Source: Pseudomonadota bacterium
GTDB lineage: Bacteria > Desulfobacterota > Desulfobulbia > Desulfobulbales > SURF-16
Reading direction: 5' to 3'
DNA length: 35,094 bases
NCBI GenBank assembly: GCA_018897105.1
Contig: JAHILF010000082.1
Coordinates: forward strand, 1 to 35,094
The position numbers and the translations under genes are program-made. Every line of letters begins with the position of its first letter. The first letter of the stretch is position 1. This document shows positions 4,098 to 34,884 of the stretch, piece after piece. The notes under the pieces were generated by a model. The model ran no database searches and was not told the DNA's origin. It worked only from the letters and a program-made list of their open reading frames with translations.

Positions 4098-5555
4098 ATG
4101 ACTTACGGCCCATTGAGAAAAAAAATCCTTATCACCGGCGCCACCGGCTACATCGGCCGAAGACTGCAGATCCGTCTGCTCGAAAATCCCGCCGTTGACC
4201 TGCGTCTGCTGGTCAGAAACCGCAACAAGGTCAACCCGCAGCTTGGTCACGAGATGGAAATTGTCGAGGGCGACACCTTTCAGCAGCAGCAACTTGCCCA
4301 AGCCGTTGCTGGCGTTGATACCACCTACTACCTCATTCATTCCATGGGGGCCGGGGCGGATTTTGAACGGCTTGACCGAACGAGCGCAGAAAATTTCCGG
4401 GATGCCTGCATTGCCGCCGGTGTAAAGCGCATTGTCTATCTTGGCGGCCTCGGAGTAAAGGAATCAGCCAGCAAACATCTGCTCAGCCGCATTGAAACCG
4501 GAGAAATTCTTTCCGCCAGACCAGCTGAGATTCAGACGATCTGGGTCAGGGCCGGGGTCATCATCGGCTCAGGCAGCGCCAGTTTTGAAATTATCCGTAA
4601 CCTGGTGCAGAAACTGCCGCTGATGATAACACCAAGATGGGTCACCACCCAGACCCAACCCATTGCCGTGGATGACGTGCTCTCATATCTTATCGCCAGC
4701 CATGACCTTGATTACCAGGGCAACCTGGTGGTTGACATCGGCTGCGGCCGGATGAAATTCGGGGAGATGCTGAGTGAGGCGGCAGAGGCAATGGGTCTTG
4801 CGCGTTTCATTATTCCGGTGCCGGTTCTCACCCCGAGGTTGTCAGCCTACTGGCTGCTCCTGTTTACCCCGGTTCCTTTCAAAATCGCCGCGGCGCTGGT
4901 TGAAGGACTCAAATCGGAAACCGTCATGCAGAATGACCATGCCGTCCGTTATTTCCCGCAAATCAGACCCATTGCCTACCGAGAGGCAGTTTTACAGGCC
5001 ATCAATGAAATTGAACAGCACCAGGTTCTCAGCCGCTGGTGCGACTCAAGCGGCGGAGCGGTTTGTGACATCACTACTCAGGAAGACATTGCCGCAGCCG
5101 TGCTCCGGGATCAACGGATCTATGATTTCGGTGATATTGCCGGTGAAAAAATATATGCAGCCCTCTGTTCCATCGGCGGGGAATCAGGCTGGTTCACCTA
5201 CAATTTCCTCTGGAAATTAAGGGGACTTATCGACAAATTTTTTGGAGGTTTCGGTCTAAATAGGGGCAGACGTGATCCGACAGATCTGCGGGTTGGGGAT
5301 GCGCTGGATTTCTGGAAGGTCGTTGACCTGAAACCAAATAAACGGCTGCTGCTGCTGGCCCAGATGAAGCTTCCCGGCAAGGCGTGGCTTGAATTTGACC
5401 TTCAGGGTCATACATTGATTCAGACCGCTCATTTTTATCCAAGAGGAATCTGGGGGAGACTGTATTGGTACTCTGTCCTGCCTTTCCACTTTCTGGTCTT
5501 CAGAGACCTGATCAAAAAAATCGTCAACCAAGCCGAAAAAAAAACCTCAACATAG
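4098..5555 (+). CDS. SDR-family NAD(P)-binding oxidoreductase with DUF2867-type C-terminal domain
   Basis: A 485-residue protein. Residues ~9-30 carry the Rossmann nucleotide-binding pattern (ILITGATGYIGRRL, GxxGxxG). The N-terminal ~300 residues resemble atypical short-chain dehydrogenases of the NmrA/YbjT type, with NAD(P) binding and a substrate pocket but no clear YxxxK pair. The C-terminal ~170 residues (FWKVVDLKPNKRLLLLAQMK, AWLEFDLQ, FYPRGIWGRLYWYSVLPFH) match the DUF2867 domain often fused to such proteins. The substrate is unknown. No good ribosome site precedes the ATG at 4098. It is a single-gene unit closed by the terminator at 5570-5609. Confidence 0.85.
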   Translation: MTYGPLRKKILITGATGYIGRRLQIRLLENPAVDLRLLVRNRNKVNPQLGHEMEIVEGDTFQQQQLAQAVAGVDTTYYLIHSMGAGADFERLDRTSAENFRDACIAAGVKRIVYLGGLGVKESASKHLLSRIETGEILSARPAEIQTIWVRAGVIIGSGSASFEIIRNLVQKLPLMITPRWVTTQTQPIAVDDVLSYLIASHDLDYQGNLVVDIGCGRMKFGEMLSEAAEAMGLARFIIPVPVLTPRLSAYWLLLFTPVPFKIAAALVEGLKSETVMQNDHAVRYFPQIRPIAYREAVLQAINEIEQHQVLSRWCDSSGGAVCDITTQEDIAAAVLRDQRIYDFGDIAGEKIYAALCSIGGESGWFTYNFLWKLRGLIDKFFGGFGLNRGRRDPTDLRVGDALDFWKVVDLKPNKRLLLLAQMKLPGKAWLEFDLQGHTLIQTAHFYPRGIWGRLYWYSVLPFHFLVFRDLIKKIVNQAEKKTST

Positions 5556-21339: not shown

Positions 21340-22659
21340 ATGAGAAAAACGTTTCTGAAATTAGTACCATTGTGCCTGATGGTCGCCCTGATCAATCCCG
21401 CCTTTGCTGCAGATCAGGGAGGAAAACCATCCGTGAACCAGCAGACGCAGCAGTCACAGCAGAAAGAAGCGAATGTATATACAGGGCAGATAGTAGGTAA
21501 ATCAGAGAAGGCGAAAACTGTTTCCATCGAAGTAGGCAAAGGCGATCAGGTAAAAACCATGATGCTCAAGTTTGACGAGCAGACCAAAGGGGTTGACCAA
21601 GCCGTCAAAGGACACGCCGCGATCATCAAGTTTGAAATGCGGGGAAACAATAAATATGCGACCGAGATCAAACCCAAACTGGCTAAATTGCCAGAGGGGG
21701 TCACGGAAATAAAGACAGAGACACTGCAGGAATTGTTAAAAAACCATACTGATATGTTTCTGGTGGATGCGCGGCCTGCAAGCAGGTATGGGCAATCCCA
21801 CCTTCCCGGTGCGGTATCCATCCCGGTTGCTCTCCTGCAGAAAAAGCAGGCCGCTGCACTGCCCCTGAATAAAGACAAGCTGATTGTATTTTACTGCGGA
21901 GGGCCCACGTGAGGCATGTCAACTACTAACGCCGGTCTGGCGAAAAAATTAGGCTATAAGAACATCCTCGTATACCTTGATGGTGAACCTGCCTGGTCCA
22001 AGGCTAATCTGCCCACCTATTCAACCAACAATTTCATTAAAACCGGCAATGTGGTGCTTGTTGATATACGACCAAGCGCGATAGCGGTACAAGCAAGGAT
22101 CAAGGGGGCATACAGTGTGCCCTACGAGGATCTCGAAGACAGGCTGGATGATGTTCCCCGCAACGCCCCGATTGTCCTTTATGGAGATGACGAGGTGATG
22201 GATGCGGTCATCGACACGCGCGAAGAGGGATTTAATTTTGTTTCTCTCGTTGAGGGTGGATTTAACGGCTGGCTCTTGGCCGGCGAGCCTGTCGAAACGG
22301 GGCCGATTTTCAATACCGAGATTAAATGGGTGCGCAAACTCGGCAAAGGAGAAGTGTCGGTTGCTGACTTCAGAAAGGCCGCAACAGGAGAAGACAAAGA
22401 CGCGGTCATCGTTGATGCGCGAACCAAGGAAGAAGTTGCCGAACTGGGTATGTTCAAGAATACCATCAACATCCCCCTTGATGAACTGTCCGCCAGAATG
22501 AATGAACTGCCCAAAGATAAAAAAATCTATGTCCACTGCTCCACCGGTGCGCGAGCTGATATGGCATACAATGAGCTGGTTAATAACGGTTTTAATGTGA
22601 AATTCCTGCTGCTGAACATCAGTGATGCGGAATGTGACTGCGAAATCATCCGGCCATGA
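21340..22659 (+). CDS. Periplasmic triple-rhodanese protein, probable selenoprotein (Sec191)
   Basis: A 439-residue protein read through an in-frame UGA at 21910-21912. Signal peptide at residues 1-23 (PAFAAD). Residues ~45-120 form a small beta-rich domain. Rhodanese 1 (~125-245) has VDARPASRYGQSHLPGAVSI and FYCGGPT-U-GMSTTNAGLA; homologues usually have CGGPTC, so U191 takes the place of the second Cys, with Cys186 kept. Rhodanese 2 (~230-325) lacks a Cys at its loop (VLYGDDE). Rhodanese 3 (~340-430) has Cys400 (YVHCSTGARAD). It ends ECDCEIIRP. TAGGAGA precedes the ATG. A SECIS-like hairpin follows the UGA. Sulfur or selenium transfer in the periplasm is inferred. Conventional gene finders would report a truncated 190-residue protein and a second fragment. 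Confidence 0.85.
21910..21942 (+). other. bSECIS-like element of the triple-rhodanese gene
   Basis: UGA (21910-21912), then a stem CGCC/GGCG (21930-21933 with 21939-21942) with loop GGTCT starting 21 bases after the UGA. The E. coli fdhF SECIS has a comparable short stem with an AGGUCU apical loop about 18 bases after its UGA. Confidence 0.65.
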
Positions 22660-23586: not shown

Positions 23587-23931
23587 ATGGAGACACCGTT
23601 GGAAAACACCCTAACCACCAAGGCCGCGACGCCGGCCGGTCTGCAGGCTGCCGCCTTCGTGGCCAAAGCACTTGCCGATGAAAATCGGCTGCGCATCATC
23701 CTGAGCCTGACGCAAGGGAAAAAATCGGTTTCCCGGATTGTCGAGGAACTGGGCATTTCCCAACCCCTGGTGTCACACCATCTCAAGGAACTCAAGCGGG
23801 CGCTGCTGGTGAACGTGGAGCGCAGCGGCCCGTTCATCTATTATGAACTGGCCGACCAGCGCATCATGACAATCCTGATGGACTTAACCGGCCTGGCAAC
23901 AGACCTGCTGACCAACCGGACAGCATTTTAA
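23587..23931 (+). CDS. ArsR/SmtB-family transcriptional regulator without cysteines
   Basis: A 114-residue winged-helix protein: AKALADENRLRIILSLTQGK leads into the recognition unit VSRIVEELGISQPLVSHHLK and a wing with GPFIYYELADQ. It contains no cysteine at all, so neither the ELCVCD metal site nor the paired-Cys persulfide switch of SqrR/BigR can operate; its inducer is unknown. The ATG at 23587 was chosen over an in-frame TTG at 23566; neither has a good ribosome site. It heads the operon of three probable selenoproteins and likely represses its own promoter and that at 27.85 kb through a shared motif. Confidence 0.88.
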   Translation: METPLENTLTTKAATPAGLQAAAFVAKALADENRLRIILSLTQGKKSVSRIVEELGISQPLVSHHLKELKRALLVNVERSGPFIYYELADQRIMTILMDLTGLATDLLTNRTAF

Positions 23932-23948
23932 CGATAAAAAGGTGAATG

Positions 23949-24413
23949 ATGAAGGAACTACAGCAAATTCTTGACACCATGGAGCCGGGTGAGGCACTGG
24001 CGGCTTTAACGCCGCAACTCAAGAAAATCCTCGCGCATCTTGATGAGGAGACCGCGGTCGGTTTTGTGACCGGCCTGATGAATGGGCCGGACGGGGACAA
24101 GGTTTCCAGCATGGTGAATCTCTGACTGGCCGAATGCATGGGCGAAGGTGTCGACCCAACGCATATGTGCCAGAGTCTGGTGCACAAGGTGGCTCAATCC
24201 AAGCAGCTGATGGCGGTCACCGATCCCGATATCCTGGTGCTTTTTGAGAGCTGGCTTGATGAACTGGAGGACGAGGTGAAGGACTACCTGCGGCAGCATC
24301 CCAAAGGCGACGCAGCAGAGCTGGCCGACAACCTGGGTCTCTCAAAAAGCGGCGCTGATTTCCTGCTGGCCAAACTCCGGCGGGAAGACCAACTAGAAGG
24401 AGGCGGACAATGA
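23949..24413 (+). CDS. Unrecognised helical protein, probable selenoprotein (Sec59)
   Basis: A 154-residue protein read through UGA at 24123-24125. The segment before (LAALTPQLKKILAHLDEETA, MNGPDGDKVSSMVNL-U) and after it (LAECMGEGVDPTHMCQSLVH) forms one continuous amphipathic helical reading, with further Cys at residues 63 and 74. The C-terminal part (LRQHPKGDAAELADNLGLSK) looks like a helix-turn-helix or winged-helix fold. I do not recognise the family. AAGGTG precedes the ATG. It is 17 bases after arsR and its stop overlaps the start of the next selenoprotein gene (ATGA). The hairpin after the UGA is the best SECIS candidate in the window. A regulatory or adaptor role for the redox operon is only a guess. 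Confidence 0.7.
24123..24164 (+). other. bSECIS-like element of the Sec59 protein gene
   Basis: After UGA (24123-24125), ATGC and TGGGCG pair with CG-CCCA (one bulged A) and GCAT to form a long hairpin. The apical loop AAGGTGT (24145-24151) starts 19 bases after the UGA and contains GGU. Confidence 0.65.
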
Positions 24414-26122
24414 AAAGATTCTGGTTCATCATCTTGCTGCTTGCCGTAAGCGGCGTCACGGGCATGGGCACGGCATGCGCCGCCACCATGGCCGAGGTGA
24501 AGAAAGAGGCGGAGCGGGGCGGCTATAAGTTGATCACAACCGATGAGCTGTGGAGCATGGTCAGCCGCGAACCTGCCAGCATATTGATGGTGGATACCCG
24601 GCAGGAATGGGAGTATGCGGCGGGCCACATTGCGGGTGCGGTGAACTTTCCCATGGAGCCCACCTGGCTTTCCCGCCTGACCAGGCGCGGCGAGCTGGAG
24701 CAGTTCCTCGGCCCGGACAAAGAGAAACATATTGTCTTTTACTGAGCAGGCCTGGCCTGAGTCCGCAGTGACTCGGCAGCCCGGGTGGCTGTCTCGCTTG
24801 GTTACACCAATATTTACCGTGATCCGCTGGGCTTTCCCGAGTGGCAGACCAAGGGCCTGCCCACGGCGACCACCGCAGCAACCGGGCAGGATGGGGTGAT
24901 TCGCCCCTCACCCGCGGCAACACCAGGGACCATGCGGGGCTGGACCCTGGCGCTCACCCTGGCCGGCATCTTTCTGGGCGGCATGGCGCTCAATCTGACC
25001 CCCTGCGTCTATCCGCTCATCCCCATCACCGTTTCCTATTTCGGCGGCCGCAGCGGCCAGGGCCAGGGGAAACTGCTGGCCCACGGCTTCTTTTACATCA
25101 TCGGCCTGGCCATGACCAATTCCATTCTTGGTGTGGTGGCCGCCACGACCGGCGGCCTCATGGGCGCCATGCTGCAGAACCCCTGGGTGCTGGCCACCGT
25201 TGCCGCGGTGCTGCTTGTTTTTGCCAGCAGTCTTTTCGGCTTCTGGGAGCTGCGCCTGCCCAGCGGCCTGACCCAGGCCGCCTCGAAAAATTATGCCGGC
25301 TATTTCGGCACCTTCTTCATGGGCATGACCCTCGGGGTGGTGGCGGCGCCGTGTATCGGCCCCTTCGTGCTCGGCCTGCTTACCTGGGTGGCCAGCACGG
25401 CGGATCCTGTTTTCGGTTTCACCATTTTTTTCACCCTGAGTCTCGGACTTGGCCTGCCCCTGTTCATCCTTGCCATGTTCTCCGGCAAGCTGGAGAAAAT
25501 GCCCCGCTCCGGCGAATGGATGAACTGGGTGAGGAAGGCGATGGGCTGGGTGCTGGTGGGCATGGCCGCCTATTTTATCCGGCCCCTGCTGCCGAAGGCA
25601 ATCAGCGTCGCGCTCTATGTCCTGCTCGCCCTGGCCGCCGGTCTCCATCTCGGCTGGCTTGACAGGACCAAGGCCGCCTTCCTGTCCTTTGCCTGGATAA
25701 AAAAAGGGGTCGGCGCGGCCGGGATCGCGCTGGCCGTTTTTCTGGCCGTATCCTGGCTGTTGCGGGGGCCCGGGGTTGCCTGGCAGTCCTACTCGCCGGA
25801 GCTTCTCGACCAGGCAAAAACCGCGGGCCGGCCGGTGATCATCGATTTCTATGCCACCTGGTGCGCACCCTGCCGGGAGCTTGACGAGATTACCTTTCAC
25901 GATCCGGCGGTGGTCGAGAAATCCGCCGACTTCGTCATGGTGAAAATCGATCTCACCGCCGGCGACAACCCTGTCTACCAGCAGCTCGTCAGGGACTATG
26001 AGGTCAAGGGCGTGCCAACCGTTGTTTTCCTGGACCCAAACGGCAGCGAGCGGCATGACATGCGGCTGGTGGATTTCATGCCGCCGCCCGAGTTTATGCA
26101 GTGGCTGGAGAAAATTCAATAG
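24410..26122 (+). CDS. Rhodanese-DsbD fusion, probable selenoprotein with two Sec (112 and 117)
   Basis: A 570-residue protein read through UGA at 24743-24745 and 24758-24760. Signal peptide at residues 1-24. Rhodanese domain ~35-150: MVDTRQEWEYAAGHIAGAVN, then HIVFY-U-AGLA-U-VRSDSAA and LGYTNIYRDPLGFPEWQ; both UGAs replace the C-x4-C cysteines of related rhodaneses. Membrane CcdA/DsbD-beta domain ~175-455 with paired transmembrane Cys199 (NLTPCVYP) and Cys315 (AAPCIGP). C-terminal thioredoxin domain with FYATWCAPC (Cys485/488). DsbD normally has an immunoglobulin-like N-terminal domain; here a Sec rhodanese takes its place, so electrons from the cytoplasm probably reach a sulfur (or selenium) carrier in the periplasm. 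Start overlaps the previous stop (ATGA), with GGAGG upstream. Confidence 0.88.
24743..24776 (+). other. SECIS-like hairpin for Sec112
   Basis: UGA at 24743-24745; stem GAGTC/GACTC (24759-24763 with 24770-24774), loop CGCAGT starting 18 bases downstream. The stem includes part of the second UGA codon. The loop is a weaker match than the others (GU but no GGU). Confidence 0.45.
24758..24791 (+). other. SECIS-like hairpin for Sec117
   Basis: UGA at 24758-24760; stem CAGCC/GGCTG (24777-24781 with 24787-24791), loop CGGGT starting 21 bases downstream and containing GGU. Confidence 0.55.
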
Positions 26123-26133
26123 AGGAGGACACC

Positions 26134-26403
26134 ATGCAGAAAGTTCGATTTTTTCTAAACGACCCGAACGGCAAGAGTTGCAGCCATTTCAAGCAAATGT
26201 TGACCAGGTTGGGCGAAAAATTTGACATACCCTTCGAGGTTATCGAAAGGCCGCGCCACGAATACCAGAGCCTGGCCTACGCCGACCTTGGTCTGCCCAA
26301 GGCGCCGGCCATCATGATCGGCGGCGACGTCATAGTCGAGGGCCGGGATATCGACGAACAGGAATTGGAAAAGATTCTCAGCCAGCGCCTGGCGGGAAAA
26401 TGA
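26134..26403 (+). CDS. Small thioredoxin/glutaredoxin-like protein, Cys form
   Basis: An 89-residue cytoplasmic protein: MQKVRFFLNDPNGKSCSHFK, then a helix, a beta strand (FEVIERPR), a PAIMIGGDVIVEGRDI strand-turn and a final helix, all matching the glutaredoxin/thioredoxin layout with a cis-Pro region (KAPAIM). Cys16 occupies the N-terminal position of the redox site; there is no second Cys in a CxxC. GAGGAGG lies just before the ATG, 11 bases after the DsbD fusion. It is the cysteine paralogue of the Sec-containing gene at 26525. Confidence 0.8.
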   Translation: MQKVRFFLNDPNGKSCSHFKQMLTRLGEKFDIPFEVIERPRHEYQSLAYADLGLPKAPAIMIGGDVIVEGRDIDEQELEKILSQRLAGK

Positions 26404-26524: not shown

Positions 26525-26845
26525 ATGCTGAAAGTACGATTTTTCTTAAACGAGCCCAACGGCGGCCCGTGAAAACATTTCAACAAGATGATGCCCAGGC
26601 TGGGCACTAAGTACGACATTGAAATTGAAGTAAATTCTCGGCCAAAGGCCGAATATCTGACCGACGAATATTTCGCCCTCGATCTGCCGGTTGCTCCGGC
26701 CGTCATGGTGGGAGAGGAAATCCTCACCGAAGGCAAGGACGTTGACGACCATACGGTCGAGATGGCCATCTGCCGCCAGCTTGGCCTGCCGGAACCGGCG
26801 CCGGAGGAAAAGAAAGGCGTATTGGGCCGCCTGTTCGGCCGCTGA
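26525..26845 (+). CDS. Small thioredoxin/glutaredoxin-like protein, Sec form (Sec16)
   Basis: A 106-residue protein read through UGA at 26570-26572. The sequence MLKVRFFLNEPNGGP-U-KHF aligns without gaps to the upstream paralogue MQKVRFFLNDPNGKS-C-SHF, so U16 stands exactly where the paralogue has Cys16. The rest also matches (FALDLPVAPAVMVGEEILTE compared with YADLGLPKAPAIMIGGDVIV). A C-terminal extension (PAPEEKKGVLGRLFGR) is basic. GGGAGG precedes the ATG. Without read-through the gene would be a 15-residue stub followed by an open frame lacking a good start. A SECIS-like hairpin follows. Confidence 0.88.
26570..26606 (+). other. bSECIS-like element of the Sec16 protein gene
   Basis: UGA at 26570-26572; stem TGCCC/GGGCA (26592-26596 with 26602-26606) with loop AGGCT starting 24 bases after the UGA. 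The spacing falls inside the usual bacterial range. Confidence 0.6.
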
Positions 26846-26858
26846 TCAGTCGACAGGT

Positions 26859-27572
26859 ATGAAACAAATGAAAACAAACACCGGGCAAAACGGGAAAACA
26901 AAAGGCCGAGGCGCGCTCAAGGCGGCGGTCCTGGTGCTTTTTATCGGCGCCGCGATCGTCCTGGTGCGCTACACTCCGGCAAAAGAGTATCTGTCCCCGG
27001 CGCAGGTCAATGCCATGCTGGAGACAACCGGCATCTGGGCGCCGGCGGCATATATTTTCTTCTATGCGGCCGGCGTATGCCTTTTTGTGCCGGGCACTCT
27101 GCTCACCGCGGTGGGCGCGGCCGTATTCGGACCCTATCAGGGTTTTGTCTATGTCTGGCTGGGAGCGATGCTGGGAGCGGCCGGCGCCTTTCTCATCGGC
27201 CGCTATCTTGGCAGGGATTTCGCCGCCTCGCTTGTCGGACCTCGTTTGCAAAAATACGACGAGGCAATCGGGCGAAACGGCTTTGCCACCGTCCTGTACC
27301 TGCGGCTTGCTTATTTCCCCTTCACCCCGATGAATTTCGGCATGGGGCTCACCAGGGTAAAATTCGGCGATTATCTGCTGGGTACGGGGATTGGCATTCT
27401 GGCAGGCACTTTTATTCTCACCTTTTTTATCGGCACCCTCCGGCAGGTATGGGCCAGCGGCGACTGGAGCCGGCTCAACAGCTGGCAGACCTATCTCTCT
27501 GTTTCCCTATTTATTTTTTCGTTTTTTCTGCCAAAGATTGCCCGAAAAATGCGCCGGGAGAAAATACAGTAA
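26859..27572 (+). CDS. TVP38/TMEM64 (DedA-like) membrane protein
   Basis: A 237-residue integral membrane protein. Hydrophobic segments at ~20-40, 63-90, 92-120, 165-200 and 210-230. The family core is visible: FVPGTLLTAVGAAVFGPYQG, GAMLGAAGAFLIGRYLGRDF and YLRLAYFPFTPMNFGMGLTR. These proteins act in lipid scrambling or transport; some are linked to mercury or selenite handling. It is 13 bases after the Sec16 gene and probably the last gene of the ArsR-led operon. An in-frame ATG at 26868 is an alternative start with a slightly better-spaced AGGT. Confidence 0.85.
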   Translation: MKQMKTNTGQNGKTKGRGALKAAVLVLFIGAAIVLVRYTPAKEYLSPAQVNAMLETTGIWAPAAYIFFYAAGVCLFVPGTLLTAVGAAVFGPYQGFVYVWLGAMLGAAGAFLIGRYLGRDFAASLVGPRLQKYDEAIGRNGFATVLYLRLAYFPFTPMNFGMGLTRVKFGDYLLGTGIGILAGTFILTFFIGTLRQVWASGDWSRLNSWQTYLSVSLFIFSFFLPKIARKMRREKIQ

Positions 27573-32092: not shown

Positions 32093-34159
32093 TTAGAAAC
32101 CGTAGCGAACTGTCAGATAACCGATATTAGCTTCATAGTCGTGGTCTGCATAGGCTCCGGACAGGTAGGTGCCGCTATTGGGTATATAGCTGTAGCCCTC
32201 GTACTGGAGGTCTCTATAGGTATACTTCTCAAACACATAGCCCAGATTGAGGTCGAGCTGTTTGCTGAAGGCATAGACCAGCTTTGCCTCCAGCCGTTTC
32301 TTGCTGTAGTCGTCATAGGGTTCGAGATCCTGCAAGGCTGTGTCGCCCTGGCTGGTGAAGGTGCTCTTGCCGTCGGACTTCTGGTATTCCCAGGAGACGA
32401 TAAGCTTTAAGATGTCCTCCATCAGCCGCACCTGGGTGGACAGGCCATAGGTCCAGAAATTATCCTTTATCTCCTGGTTCCACAGGTAGGAGGCGGCATT
32501 GCCGTCATTTACCGTGGGATCGGCCAACTGGGGCGGCGTACCCGAGCCTGCGGCAAAGTTGTAATGATCCGCCTCGGCCTTCGTGTATTCATAACCGGCA
32601 AAACCGCTCAGGTTGAACAGGCTGTAGCCGTGCCAGAGGAAGTCCAGATACACCTGATGCCGCTTGTCCTCGGTCCTGCCCAGGACGACCTTGTCATAGT
32701 CGTTGATGATGTAGCTGTAGTCCAGGCCGAGATCAAGGGTATCCAGGGGATAGAATTCCAGGGTGAGTTTGACCGCATCCCTGCTTTTGTCCGTGACATC
32801 GTAACGCTGGACATACTGGACTATATACTCGGCATCGGTGTCGGTTACCCCGGTCAGATCAAAGTCAGTGTCCGTATCCCGCTCCAGATGTGAATACTTC
32901 AGTTTGGCCGTGACATATTCAGACATGGAGTTCTTCAGCTGAAGGTAGACGGTATTGTCGGTATTGTTGTCCGCATCCGGCCGGTTGTGCCGGTCAACAT
33001 ACTGATATTCATAGCCTATTTCTGCTTTGGAGCGCCAGGGCAGCTTGTAGCCGATATCGATCCCCGCATCATCCTTGCTGTAATCAAAGAGATCGGTGGC
33101 ATTGCTTTCAATGGTGCCCAGGCCGTTATCATAGGCGATGATATCGGAGTTGTTTTCCTTATCCGTATACCGGTAATAGAGTCGGGCATCGAGTTCCCTG
33201 GTGGGCTGGCTGACCAGCACCGCTGCGAGATTAGTGTAAATGATCTCGCCGTCAAAGGTTGCTCTGTTTAAGTCCAGCGGCGCGGTGAGATTCAATTCGG
33301 AGATGGAAAAATCATCCTCCAGCTTGGCATAGCTGCCGCTCAGGGTAAAAGTCGACATGAAGGGCAGCTCGCGCATGGTCAAGTTGGCGCCGATCTTGCC
33401 GTAATCGTTTTCCGGCGGCATGATGCTGGTCTCCGTGGTCAGGGCAAACGGATTCTCCCAGTTCAGGTAAAGATTGTTGTTATCAAAAGAGCTGAGCATA
33501 CCCGACAGGGTAAAATTCATGGTCTTGGAGCGGTAGCCGGCCATCAGGTTAAGATCATTGGTCTGGTAATCAACCGGCTCCGGCAGCTCCACCGTGCCGC
33601 CGAAATCGCCGGCAGCCAGGGGTTTCACTCCCTCGGTCTCAAGCCGGCTTGCCCCGATCTTCACAAAAAACGGGGTGCCCAATGACACCTCCAGTTCACC
33701 ACCGTACTTTTTTCTCTCTATGGAATAATCAAAGGAGGACCAGTTCGCTTCCGGGGCCGGAGCAGCGCCGGAATAGCTGAGATTATCAGTCCCCACGCCC
33801 GAATAAAAGGTTTTGGCATCAAAAGAGTAATTATGCGGGGTTTCATCATAGTTCAGCTTGTATTTAAACTTGCCGAACTGACCTCCCTTCAGCCAGTAGT
33901 CCTGATCATCCAGACCGATATTGGTCCCCTCCAGCCCAAAATAGTAGGATCCTTTGTAGGCTTCCAGCAGGACATTGCCGAGCACATCGTCATCAAGGTC
34001 ACGGTATTCCTGAAATTTAGCACTGTTATCCTGATCATCCACGCCCATGACGCCCAGTTCCAGCGAACCGGTCACCACGGCAGCCTCCTCAGCCGCCATG
34101 ACGTAAGAGGGGGTGAGCAGTAATGTTGCCGCAATAAGTGATATATATCTTCTTTTCAT
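32093..34159 (-). CDS. MtrB/PioB-family outer-membrane beta-barrel
   Basis: A 688-residue protein. Signal peptide at 1-22 (TPSYVMAAE). The whole mature protein alternates short amphipathic strands with acidic, Tyr/Asn/Asp-rich turns (YFGLEGTNIGLDDQDYWLKG, KFKYKLNYDETPHNYSFDAK) and ends YLTVRYGF with the C-terminal Phe of barrels. Such MtrB/PioB proteins form a pore that holds a multihaem cytochrome so that electrons cross the outer membrane. The N-terminal CxxC seen in some MtrB proteins is absent. An AGGAGGAG ribosome site lies just before the ATG, 11 bases after the cytochrome gene, so the two are an operon for extracellular or periplasm-to-outside electron transfer. Confidence 0.9.
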   Translation of the reverse strand: MKRRYISLIAATLLLTPSYVMAAEEAAVVTGSLELGVMGVDDQDNSAKFQEYRDLDDDVLGNVLLEAYKGSYYFGLEGTNIGLDDQDYWLKGGQFGKFKYKLNYDETPHNYSFDAKTFYSGVGTDNLSYSGAAPAPEANWSSFDYSIERKKYGGELEVSLGTPFFVKIGASRLETEGVKPLAAGDFGGTVELPEPVDYQTNDLNLMAGYRSKTMNFTLSGMLSSFDNNNLYLNWENPFALTTETSIMPPENDYGKIGANLTMRELPFMSTFTLSGSYAKLEDDFSISELNLTAPLDLNRATFDGEIIYTNLAAVLVSQPTRELDARLYYRYTDKENNSDIIAYDNGLGTIESNATDLFDYSKDDAGIDIGYKLPWRSKAEIGYEYQYVDRHNRPDADNNTDNTVYLQLKNSMSEYVTAKLKYSHLERDTDTDFDLTGVTDTDAEYIVQYVQRYDVTDKSRDAVKLTLEFYPLDTLDLGLDYSYIINDYDKVVLGRTEDKRHQVYLDFLWHGYSLFNLSGFAGYEYTKAEADHYNFAAGSGTPPQLADPTVNDGNAASYLWNQEIKDNFWTYGLSTQVRLMEDILKLIVSWEYQKSDGKSTFTSQGDTALQDLEPYDDYSKKRLEAKLVYAFSKQLDLNLGYVFEKYTYRDLQYEGYSYIPNSGTYLSGAYADHDYEANIGYLTVRYGF

Positions 34160-34170
34160 ATCCGCTCCTC

Positions 34171-34884
34171 CTATTGTCTCAGACCATGATTTTCGAAATT
34201 GGCGCTCCCATGGATGGCACCATGACAGTTCAGACAGGAGCGGGCGAAGAATCTGTTGCTCGGACTGGAACCGGTAAAGCCTGCATTGGCATCATACGGG
34301 GTACCGGGGTGGCGGGACCAGTCGTGGCAGTCCTGACAGACGTTGGGGACCTTTTCCACCAGCAGTTTGGCGTGTCTGCTGCCATGGGGAGAATGACAGA
34401 TCAAACAGTTCTCCTCAACCGGCGAATGCTCCCAGACAAAGGGACCTCTTTTTTCCGCATGGCACTGGTAACACAGCTGGTTGACCGTATCGTCCTTGAT
34501 CATGTGTTGTGTTGCGGTGCCATGGGTGTTGTGGCAGTCAGAGCACTTGATCTTGTTCTCGATGATGGGATGGTGGGACTGTTTGTTTACCGCGACTTTG
34601 ATGTCCCGGTGGCAGGTAAAACATTTGGTCGGCTGATCCACCGCGCCACGGGTGGCGTGCATGGTATGACAGTTAAAACAGGAAATATCGTTTCTGCTGT
34701 GCTTGCTCATCTTCCACATGGCCATGTGGGTGTCGCTGTCATGACAGGCCAGGCATTTGGCGCTCAGTTCATCGACTGCGCTGCCCCCTTTTGCCTGGTA
34801 AACCAGGACGTTCTTCATGGTGGGATCTGCAACGTGGGCATCCGTATCCCCGTGACAGGTCTGGCAGCCGTGCTGTTCTCCCAT
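34171..34884 (-). CDS. DmsE-type multihaem c-type cytochrome, nine CxxCH, 5' end damaged
   Basis: At least 237 residues with nine CxxCH motifs (CQTCH, CLACH, CFNCH, CFTCH, CSDCH, CYQCH, CLICH, CQDCH, CLNCH) and many distal His. DmsE/MtrA-like decahaem proteins sit inside MtrB barrels; the barrel gene is 11 bases downstream. The ATG at 34884 has no signal peptide, though haem attachment needs export. The frame is open upstream (FHAKIWKG precedes it, typical for this family) to a stop near 34970. In another frame CYCHTADIRR appears where the first haem motif is expected. A frameshift or deletion probably disrupted the tenth haem and signal peptide. Given as CDS because the rest is intact; it may be a pseudogene. 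Confidence 0.8.
   Translation of the reverse strand: MGEQHGCQTCHGDTDAHVADPTMKNVLVYQAKGGSAVDELSAKCLACHDSDTHMAMWKMSKHSRNDISCFNCHTMHATRGAVDQPTKCFTCHRDIKVAVNKQSHHPIIENKIKCSDCHNTHGTATQHMIKDDTVNQLCYQCHAEKRGPFVWEHSPVEENCLICHSPHGSRHAKLLVEKVPNVCQDCHDWSRHPGTPYDANAGFTGSSPSNRFFARSCLNCHGAIHGSANFENHGLRQ

Follow-up and report, generated by a model that had tools for sequence, protein, structure and literature searches.

The closest described counterpart of the gene analysed here is TsoB, which a table in a review (PMC13188914), with reference to Haft and Tolstoy 2025, describes as a fusion of rhodanese and DsbD that has a UxxxxU motif and two selenocysteines (Sec); few families with two Sec appear among the rows of that table that were consulted. 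A literature search for TsoB returned that review alone, and a search on tandem SECIS elements gave nothing on point in the titles and abstract starts among the matches listed, the naming paper lying outside the coverage of the search.

We analysed a window of 35,094 nucleotides (contig JAHILF010000082.1 of assembly GCA_018897105.1, forward strand; all coordinates below are those of the window unless a locus is named), and the two-UGA gene that it contains is a TsoB, a member of a known family, in a tso locus of a known kind. NCBIfam places the read-through protein in NF045694, "rhodanese/DsbD fusion-like selenoprotein TsoB", with 933 bits against a cut-off of 805, in a match covering profile positions 24-571 of 572. 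The protein has the UxxxxU motif with two in-frame UGA codons in its rhodanese domain, and genes for TsoA, TsoC and TsoR lie beside tsoB, a neighbourhood feature that we took from the shared names. The initial annotation, made from the sequence alone, had singled out the fusion of a Sec-pair rhodanese to DsbD as unusual; the fusion is real, but it is less surprising than was thought, TsoB having already been named and catalogued.

The tsoB gene and its neighbourhood

The tsoB gene extends over 24410-26122 of the forward strand, an assignment based on the open frame, the NCBIfam match and Pfam domains, and its frame contains stops only at codon 112, at codon 117 and at the end. Reading the frame and matching it to Pfam bore out the coordinates and domain order first given for this gene, and also the description of a frame with two UGAs 15 bases apart that is otherwise unbroken. 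An N-terminal signal or anchor segment opens the protein and is followed by a rhodanese domain (residues 43-147), a DsbD transmembrane domain (182-393; PF02683, 153.9 bits) and a C-terminal thioredoxin-type domain (457-566), for which Pfam thioredoxin domains were also matched and in which the motif is C485APC488. The active-site loop of the rhodanese reads U-A-G-L-A-U, and five alignments to solved rhodaneses, from a total of 10 hits, show two extra residues in it. In those five alignments the residue encoded by the first UGA (Sec codon 112; 24743-24745, forward strand) stands at the catalytic-cysteine place of rhodaneses, and that encoded by the second (Sec codon 117; 24758-24760, forward strand) falls in or beside the two-residue insertion, the placement of the gap differing from one alignment to another. 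The cysteines of the putative relay are conserved among 56 TsoB sequences (C199 in 56 and C315 in 55; C485 and C488 in 53, the other 3 having gaps there). Only 2 of the 56 have Cys at the position of C23, close to the signal segment, so that C23 is not a conserved lipoprotein cysteine.

Upstream of tsoB on the same strand are tsoR (23599-23931, start codon TTG assumed), encoding an ArsR/SmtB-type regulator (NF045707, 164.5 bits, cut-off 115), and tsoA (23946-24413), encoding a LULAEC selenoprotein (NF045695, 213.2 bits, cut-off 170) with its UGA Sec codon at 24123-24125. The stop codon of tsoA is itself a UGA that overlaps the start of tsoB (ATGA), and since UGA also serves as a stop at this locus, its decoding is dependent on context. 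Downstream, again on the forward strand, are two copies of tsoC, the first a Cys form with NDPNGKSC (26134-26403; NF045708, 127.5 bits, cut-off 45) and the second a Sec form with NEPNGGPU (26525-26845; 143.9 bits against the same cut-off) whose UGA Sec codon is at 26570-26572, and then a gene for a VTT-domain membrane protein of the TVP38/DedA type (26859-27572; PF09335, 80.8 bits). Farther along the window an MtrB/PioB-type outer-membrane porin adjoins a multihaem cytochrome (32093-34159 and 34171-34884), as in extracellular electron transfer clusters.

Neighbours were counted over 57 loci, which are the 56 plus a Cys copy described below and many of which are cut by contig ends. TsoC was matched in 50 of them, TsoA in 46 and a TsoR-like protein in 49, the last figure including three loci (L048, L052 and L085) that have weak ArsR paralogues only. 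The VTT protein is a frequent neighbour as well, lying near tsoB in 25 of the 57 loci, in one of them on the opposite strand. Sec is present in the LULA motif of all 46 TsoA rows, and 70 of the 71 TsoC rows (from 50 loci) carry Sec, the only Cys form being the first copy in the window (26134-26403). At that place UGA is found in its close relatives (L046, L043 and L044), and the copy probably represents a recent change from Sec to Cys. A predicted structure of TsoC, built on an alignment of 40 of the 71 rows, had a pLDDT of 91.9 and found thioredoxins as its best structural matches (E 3e-3, TM about 0.5), suggesting, in modest terms, a small thioredoxin-like protein. The corresponding TsoA model (alignment of 37 of the 46 rows) was of low confidence, with a pLDDT of 70.5 and a pTM of 0.40; no Foldseek match had an E-value better than 0.38, those that scored best spanned only about 45 residues, mostly of winged-helix-type domains, and they do not enter the interpretation. 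In at least one locus, L052, the usual place of tsoR and tsoA is occupied by a fusion of an ArsR-type domain with a C-x4-C rhodanese (YCRGPYC; 4515-5186, if the TGA at 5184-5186 is its end), and L048 gives the same weak matches.

Conservation and probable recoding of the UGA pair

Fifty-nine distinct regions, from loci L009-L105 and the window, reach the two-residue motif, a count in which identical copies were merged, a duplicate of the window locus (L027) was dropped and ten loci whose match stops short of the motif were excluded. The codons at the two places are TGA/TGA in 56 of these regions and TGC/TGT in one; the remaining two are not TsoB: L033 (TGT/TGT) belongs to the N-terminal domain of a normal DsbD, and the second match of L046 (TGC/TGA) is a tri-rhodanese. 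Among unfiltered TsoB-type regions, then, 56 of 57 have both UGAs, one has Cys at both places and none is mixed, and the spacing of the two UGAs, checked on the TGA/TGA regions only, is exactly 15 nt in all 56. The Cys/Cys copy (L092, in genome G278) is full-length, and its TGC and TGT codons stand in a single continuous open frame that runs across the rhodanese and DsbD parts; no tsoR, tsoA or tsoC matches were found in the 15 kb examined at that locus. Of 395 genomes of the phylum, counting the one from which the window comes, 22 passed the TsoB cut-off, at 23 places, of which 22 contain exactly two TGA codons and one contains none. A scan of genome contigs yielded 43 loci, among them loci of the named isolates Desulfoprunum benzoelyticum DSM 28570, Desulfobulbus sp. 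Tol-SR and Desulforhopalus sp. IMCC35007.

These counts agree with what the initial annotation had anticipated for homologue columns 112 and 117, namely Cys or Sec. Its remark that related rhodaneses have two cysteines there finds examples in L092 and in the C-x4-C form of 6 of 29 tri-rhodanese loci, and the retention of the UGA pair in nearly all TsoB-type homologue regions rules out the chance nonsense mutation that it had called unlikely. The idea that a pair of nonsense changes in a decaying DsbD fusion, or sequencing errors, put two stops within 15 bases of a draft assembly of 177 contigs has practically no chance of being right and was rejected, as both TGAs are conserved among homologues (56 of 57 regions, from many assemblies that include the named isolates at L060, L067 and L081), the rest of the frame is intact and silent-site conservation peaks at the UGAs.

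The genome from which the window was taken encodes the Sec machinery that the initial annotation had proposed to look for, each component scoring over its cut-off: tRNA-Sec (71.5 bits, gathering score 47), SelB (373.4 bits), SelA (616 bits) and SelD (379.9 bits). In 14 control genomes the same cut-offs were passed by tRNA-Sec in 5, SelB in 2, SelA in 1 and SelD in 2, and given these controls a tRNA-Sec match on its own would carry the least weight of the four. Homologues with Cys at the UGA positions exist, both in L092 (TGC/TGT) and among tri-rhodaneses (C-x4-C). Comparative sequence evidence thus makes the selenocysteine reading of both UGAs in tsoB well supported, and TsoB is in all likelihood a genuine membrane protein that contains selenium. 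As a separate observation, the selD match (G000:C135:31619-32545) itself contains one in-frame TGA.

Translation might instead end at the first UGA, leaving a 111-residue fragment, with a separate DsbD-like protein initiated at the GTG at 24785. A GTG-started open reading frame does exist (24785-26122), and genomes G191 and G278 carry U-x4-U rhodaneses that stand alone, with no DsbD part. We nevertheless consider this arrangement very improbable: the 111-residue fragment would be without the catalytic residue, the RNA constraint and the paired UGAs fit recoding, and the Cys/Cys copy in G278 is one uninterrupted frame through both domains. Some termination at a UGA may occur, giving a minor product, alongside the full-length protein with Sec at both positions that we favour.

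Candidate SECIS hairpins after the UGAs

Single-sequence folds of the RNA of the window did not exceed shuffles in stability (z -0.60, -0.55 and -1.32), and because such folding did not tell SECIS elements from shuffles, we turned to the alignment for SECIS evidence. In a codon alignment of the 56 TsoB sequences, mean same-codon usage was 0.435 over 458 columns; codons 118-127, straight after the second UGA, ranked first of 401 ten-codon windows with a value of 0.742. Within this stretch all 56 sequences encode Asp121 by GAC, a codon used at 19-62% in the other eight Asp columns. At Val118 the third base is C or U in 55 of 55, which ranks highest among 25 Val columns, and at Val126 it is a pyrimidine in 0 of 56, which ranks lowest.

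Two putative hairpins would explain this silent-site pattern. The first, proposed as the SECIS for the first UGA (24759-24774, forward strand), consists of 5 bp (GAGUC/GACUC) closing the loop CGCAGU, and its 5' arm includes two bases of the second UGA. All five pairs can form in 52 of the 56 sequences and four pairs in the other 4; the 56-sequence alignment contains no compensatory change in this hairpin, and RNAalifold favours another pairing in that stretch. Hairpin 1 is proposed from silent-site conservation only, the constrained codons being 118 and 121. The second hairpin, proposed for the second UGA (24776-24792, forward strand), has 6 bp and the loop CGGGU; all six pairs can form in 53 of 56 sequences and five in the other 3, and RNAalifold recovered it unaided. 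Four of its six pairs involve bases largely set by the protein sequence, and compensatory changes are seen at two pairs that join silent positions (GC 43, AU 8, CG 2, GU 1 and other 2 at one; CG 54 and UA 2 at the other). The silent pair between codons 123 and 127 ranks 30th of 3986 third-position pairs by excess pairing; six third-position pairs exceed 90% pairing and have 5 or more two-sided changes, and of these only 123/127 has three Watson-Crick types, so that it is a strong pair, yet not unique as a single pair. For both hairpins jointly, 98.9% of cells are paired and 12 cells have a two-sided change. None of 500 shuffles was as high in cells paired, in cells with two-sided change or in covariation score, but on the other two of the five measures the hairpins do not stand out, 24 of 500 shuffles being at least as high in pairs with two-sided change and 55 of 500 in further pair types.

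The bSECIS model as outlined in the review (PMC13188914) specifies a loop of 3-9 nt, a stem of 4-16 bp, a G in the first two loop places and a distance of 16-37 nt. Both hairpins agree in loop, stem and spacing with the geometric part of this model, which also has a free-energy part: their loops are 6 nt and 5 nt, G occupies the second loop place in 56 of 56 sequences in each, and the distances are 18 nt from the first UGA to loop 1 and 21 nt from the second UGA to loop 2.

Hairpin 2 lies 36 nt from the first UGA, also within the published 16-37 nt range (PMC13188914), and could serve both UGAs by itself if the conservation of codons 118-121 had some other cause. Covariation is found in hairpin 2 only, and hairpin 1 was not picked by RNAalifold, both of which suit such an arrangement; we think it unlikely, though deserving of some weight, as hairpin 1, unlike hairpin 2, accounts for the invariant GAC at codon 121 (56/56) and the third-place pyrimidine at codon 118 (55/55). 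With both hairpins in place, the two UGAs would be decoded successively. Hairpin 1 would serve the first UGA and would melt once the ribosome arrived at the second, which is located in its stem, and hairpin 2 would thereafter serve the second UGA. The alignment thereby supplies a directly testable model for the recoding of two UGAs 15 nt apart.

A possible electron relay and its known relatives

The domain order of TsoB is that of DsbD with the N-terminal domain swapped, and the residues of a redox chain are conserved, and for these reasons we propose that cytoplasmic thioredoxin or the thioredoxin-like TsoC would supply electrons to the membrane pair C199/C315, from which they would pass to C485/C488 of the periplasmic thioredoxin domain and go on to reduce the Sec112/Sec117 pair. 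From domain order and residue conservation we infer a diselenide bond and a trans-membrane relay. The Sec pair might then rapidly reduce a sulfur or selenium species in the periplasm, such as a persulfide, a polysulfide or an oxidised selenium compound, this substrate step being the least certain part of the explanation.

The rhodanese loop could transfer sulfur instead of accepting electrons, in which case TsoB would be mainly a periplasmic sulfurtransferase or selenium carrier that its DsbD part merely resets. The rhodanese fold assigned by Pfam is in keeping with such a role, as are the ArsR-rhodanese fusion in the tsoR/tsoA place of L052, with the same weak matches in L048, and the VTT/TVP38 neighbour in 25 of 57 loci, a type of membrane protein linked to selenite handling. 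Against it, we reason that dithiol-type redox exchange would be better served by a second Sec at i+5 than would transfer by a single residue, and the domain order of TsoB is that of DsbD, whose N-terminal domain is the reductase end point; we therefore regard a primary transfer or carrier function as doubtful, if still a serious competitor to the reductase.

Taken whole, the explanation of TsoB as a Sec-pair selenoprotein, decoded serially with two hairpins and working as a reductase fed by its DsbD module, is one that we hold with considerable confidence on sequence grounds. A stricter version, in which a diselenide-forming trans-membrane reductase is combined with two SECIS elements and decoding of the first UGA, with melting of hairpin 1, necessarily precedes the second, is tentative and falls somewhat short of an even chance. 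TsoB is of interest as a two-Sec protein that sits on a membrane electron conduit, and the two-hairpin model and the position-by-position comparison of Cys and Sec are the parts most worth following.

Compared with TsoB as described by NF045694, the protein of the window shows the same full-length match over cut-off, rhodanese/DsbD fusion, UxxxxU motif and two Sec, and its locus has the same neighbours, TsoA, TsoC and the regulator TsoR; no essential difference was found, the first of the two TsoC copies in the window having Cys. TsoB and DsbD (NF001419) have in common, in the same order, a membrane domain with a Cys pair and a C-terminal thioredoxin domain, but TsoB stays under the DsbD cut-off (265.6 of 330 bits) and has a Sec-pair rhodanese where DsbD has its N-terminal domain. 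The LYCAU-type rhodanese-related (seleno)protein (NF041203) is, like TsoB, a rhodanese selenoprotein, but TsoB scores only 37 bits against its cut-off of 115, and the LYCAU type is given a CxU motif in the table of the review (PMC13188914), in contrast to UxxxxU.

Stand-alone, membrane-anchored rhodaneses with YUAGLAUVRS and two in-frame UGAs were found in two genomes, at L136 435-932 (G191:C53) and at L137 354-857 (G278:C40), the latter with a C-x4-C rhodanese open reading frame downstream (1422-1934). TsoB too has a membrane-anchor segment and a YUAGLAUVRS rhodanese, whereas the stand-alone frames are without the DsbD or thioredoxin part. Because U-x4-U rhodaneses stand alone in G191 and G278, the Sec-pair loop is not tied to the DsbD fusion; such a loop apparently need not be reduced by a fused DsbD, and the stand-alone forms would have to be reduced by another protein.

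The window itself also contains a tri-rhodanese gene (21340-22659) that ends 1.75 kb upstream of tsoB and has the motif YCGGPTU (C-x4-U), with one in-frame UGA at 21910-21912. No NCBIfam model scored over cut-off on it, and the entry UxxS rhodanese form 1 of the review (PMC13188914) may correspond to it. Tri-rhodanese matches at E 1e-30 or better occur in 38 of the 395 phylum genomes, and every one of the 29 loci mapped, that of the window among them, has Cys at the first place, with Sec at the second in 23 and Cys in 6; this count leaves out L115, whose match stops before the motif, and an additional C-x4-C match in L114. TsoB shares with this family a rhodanese loop with a pair at i and i+5, but the first position of the tri-rhodaneses is Cys and they have no DsbD part. 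A series from C-x4-C through C-x4-U to U-x4-U is seen across these rhodanese families as compared by sequence, no order of change being implied, and sulfur can be compared with selenium at each position in naturally occurring proteins, namely the Cys/Cys copy, the stand-alone U-x4-U proteins and the C-x4-U relatives.
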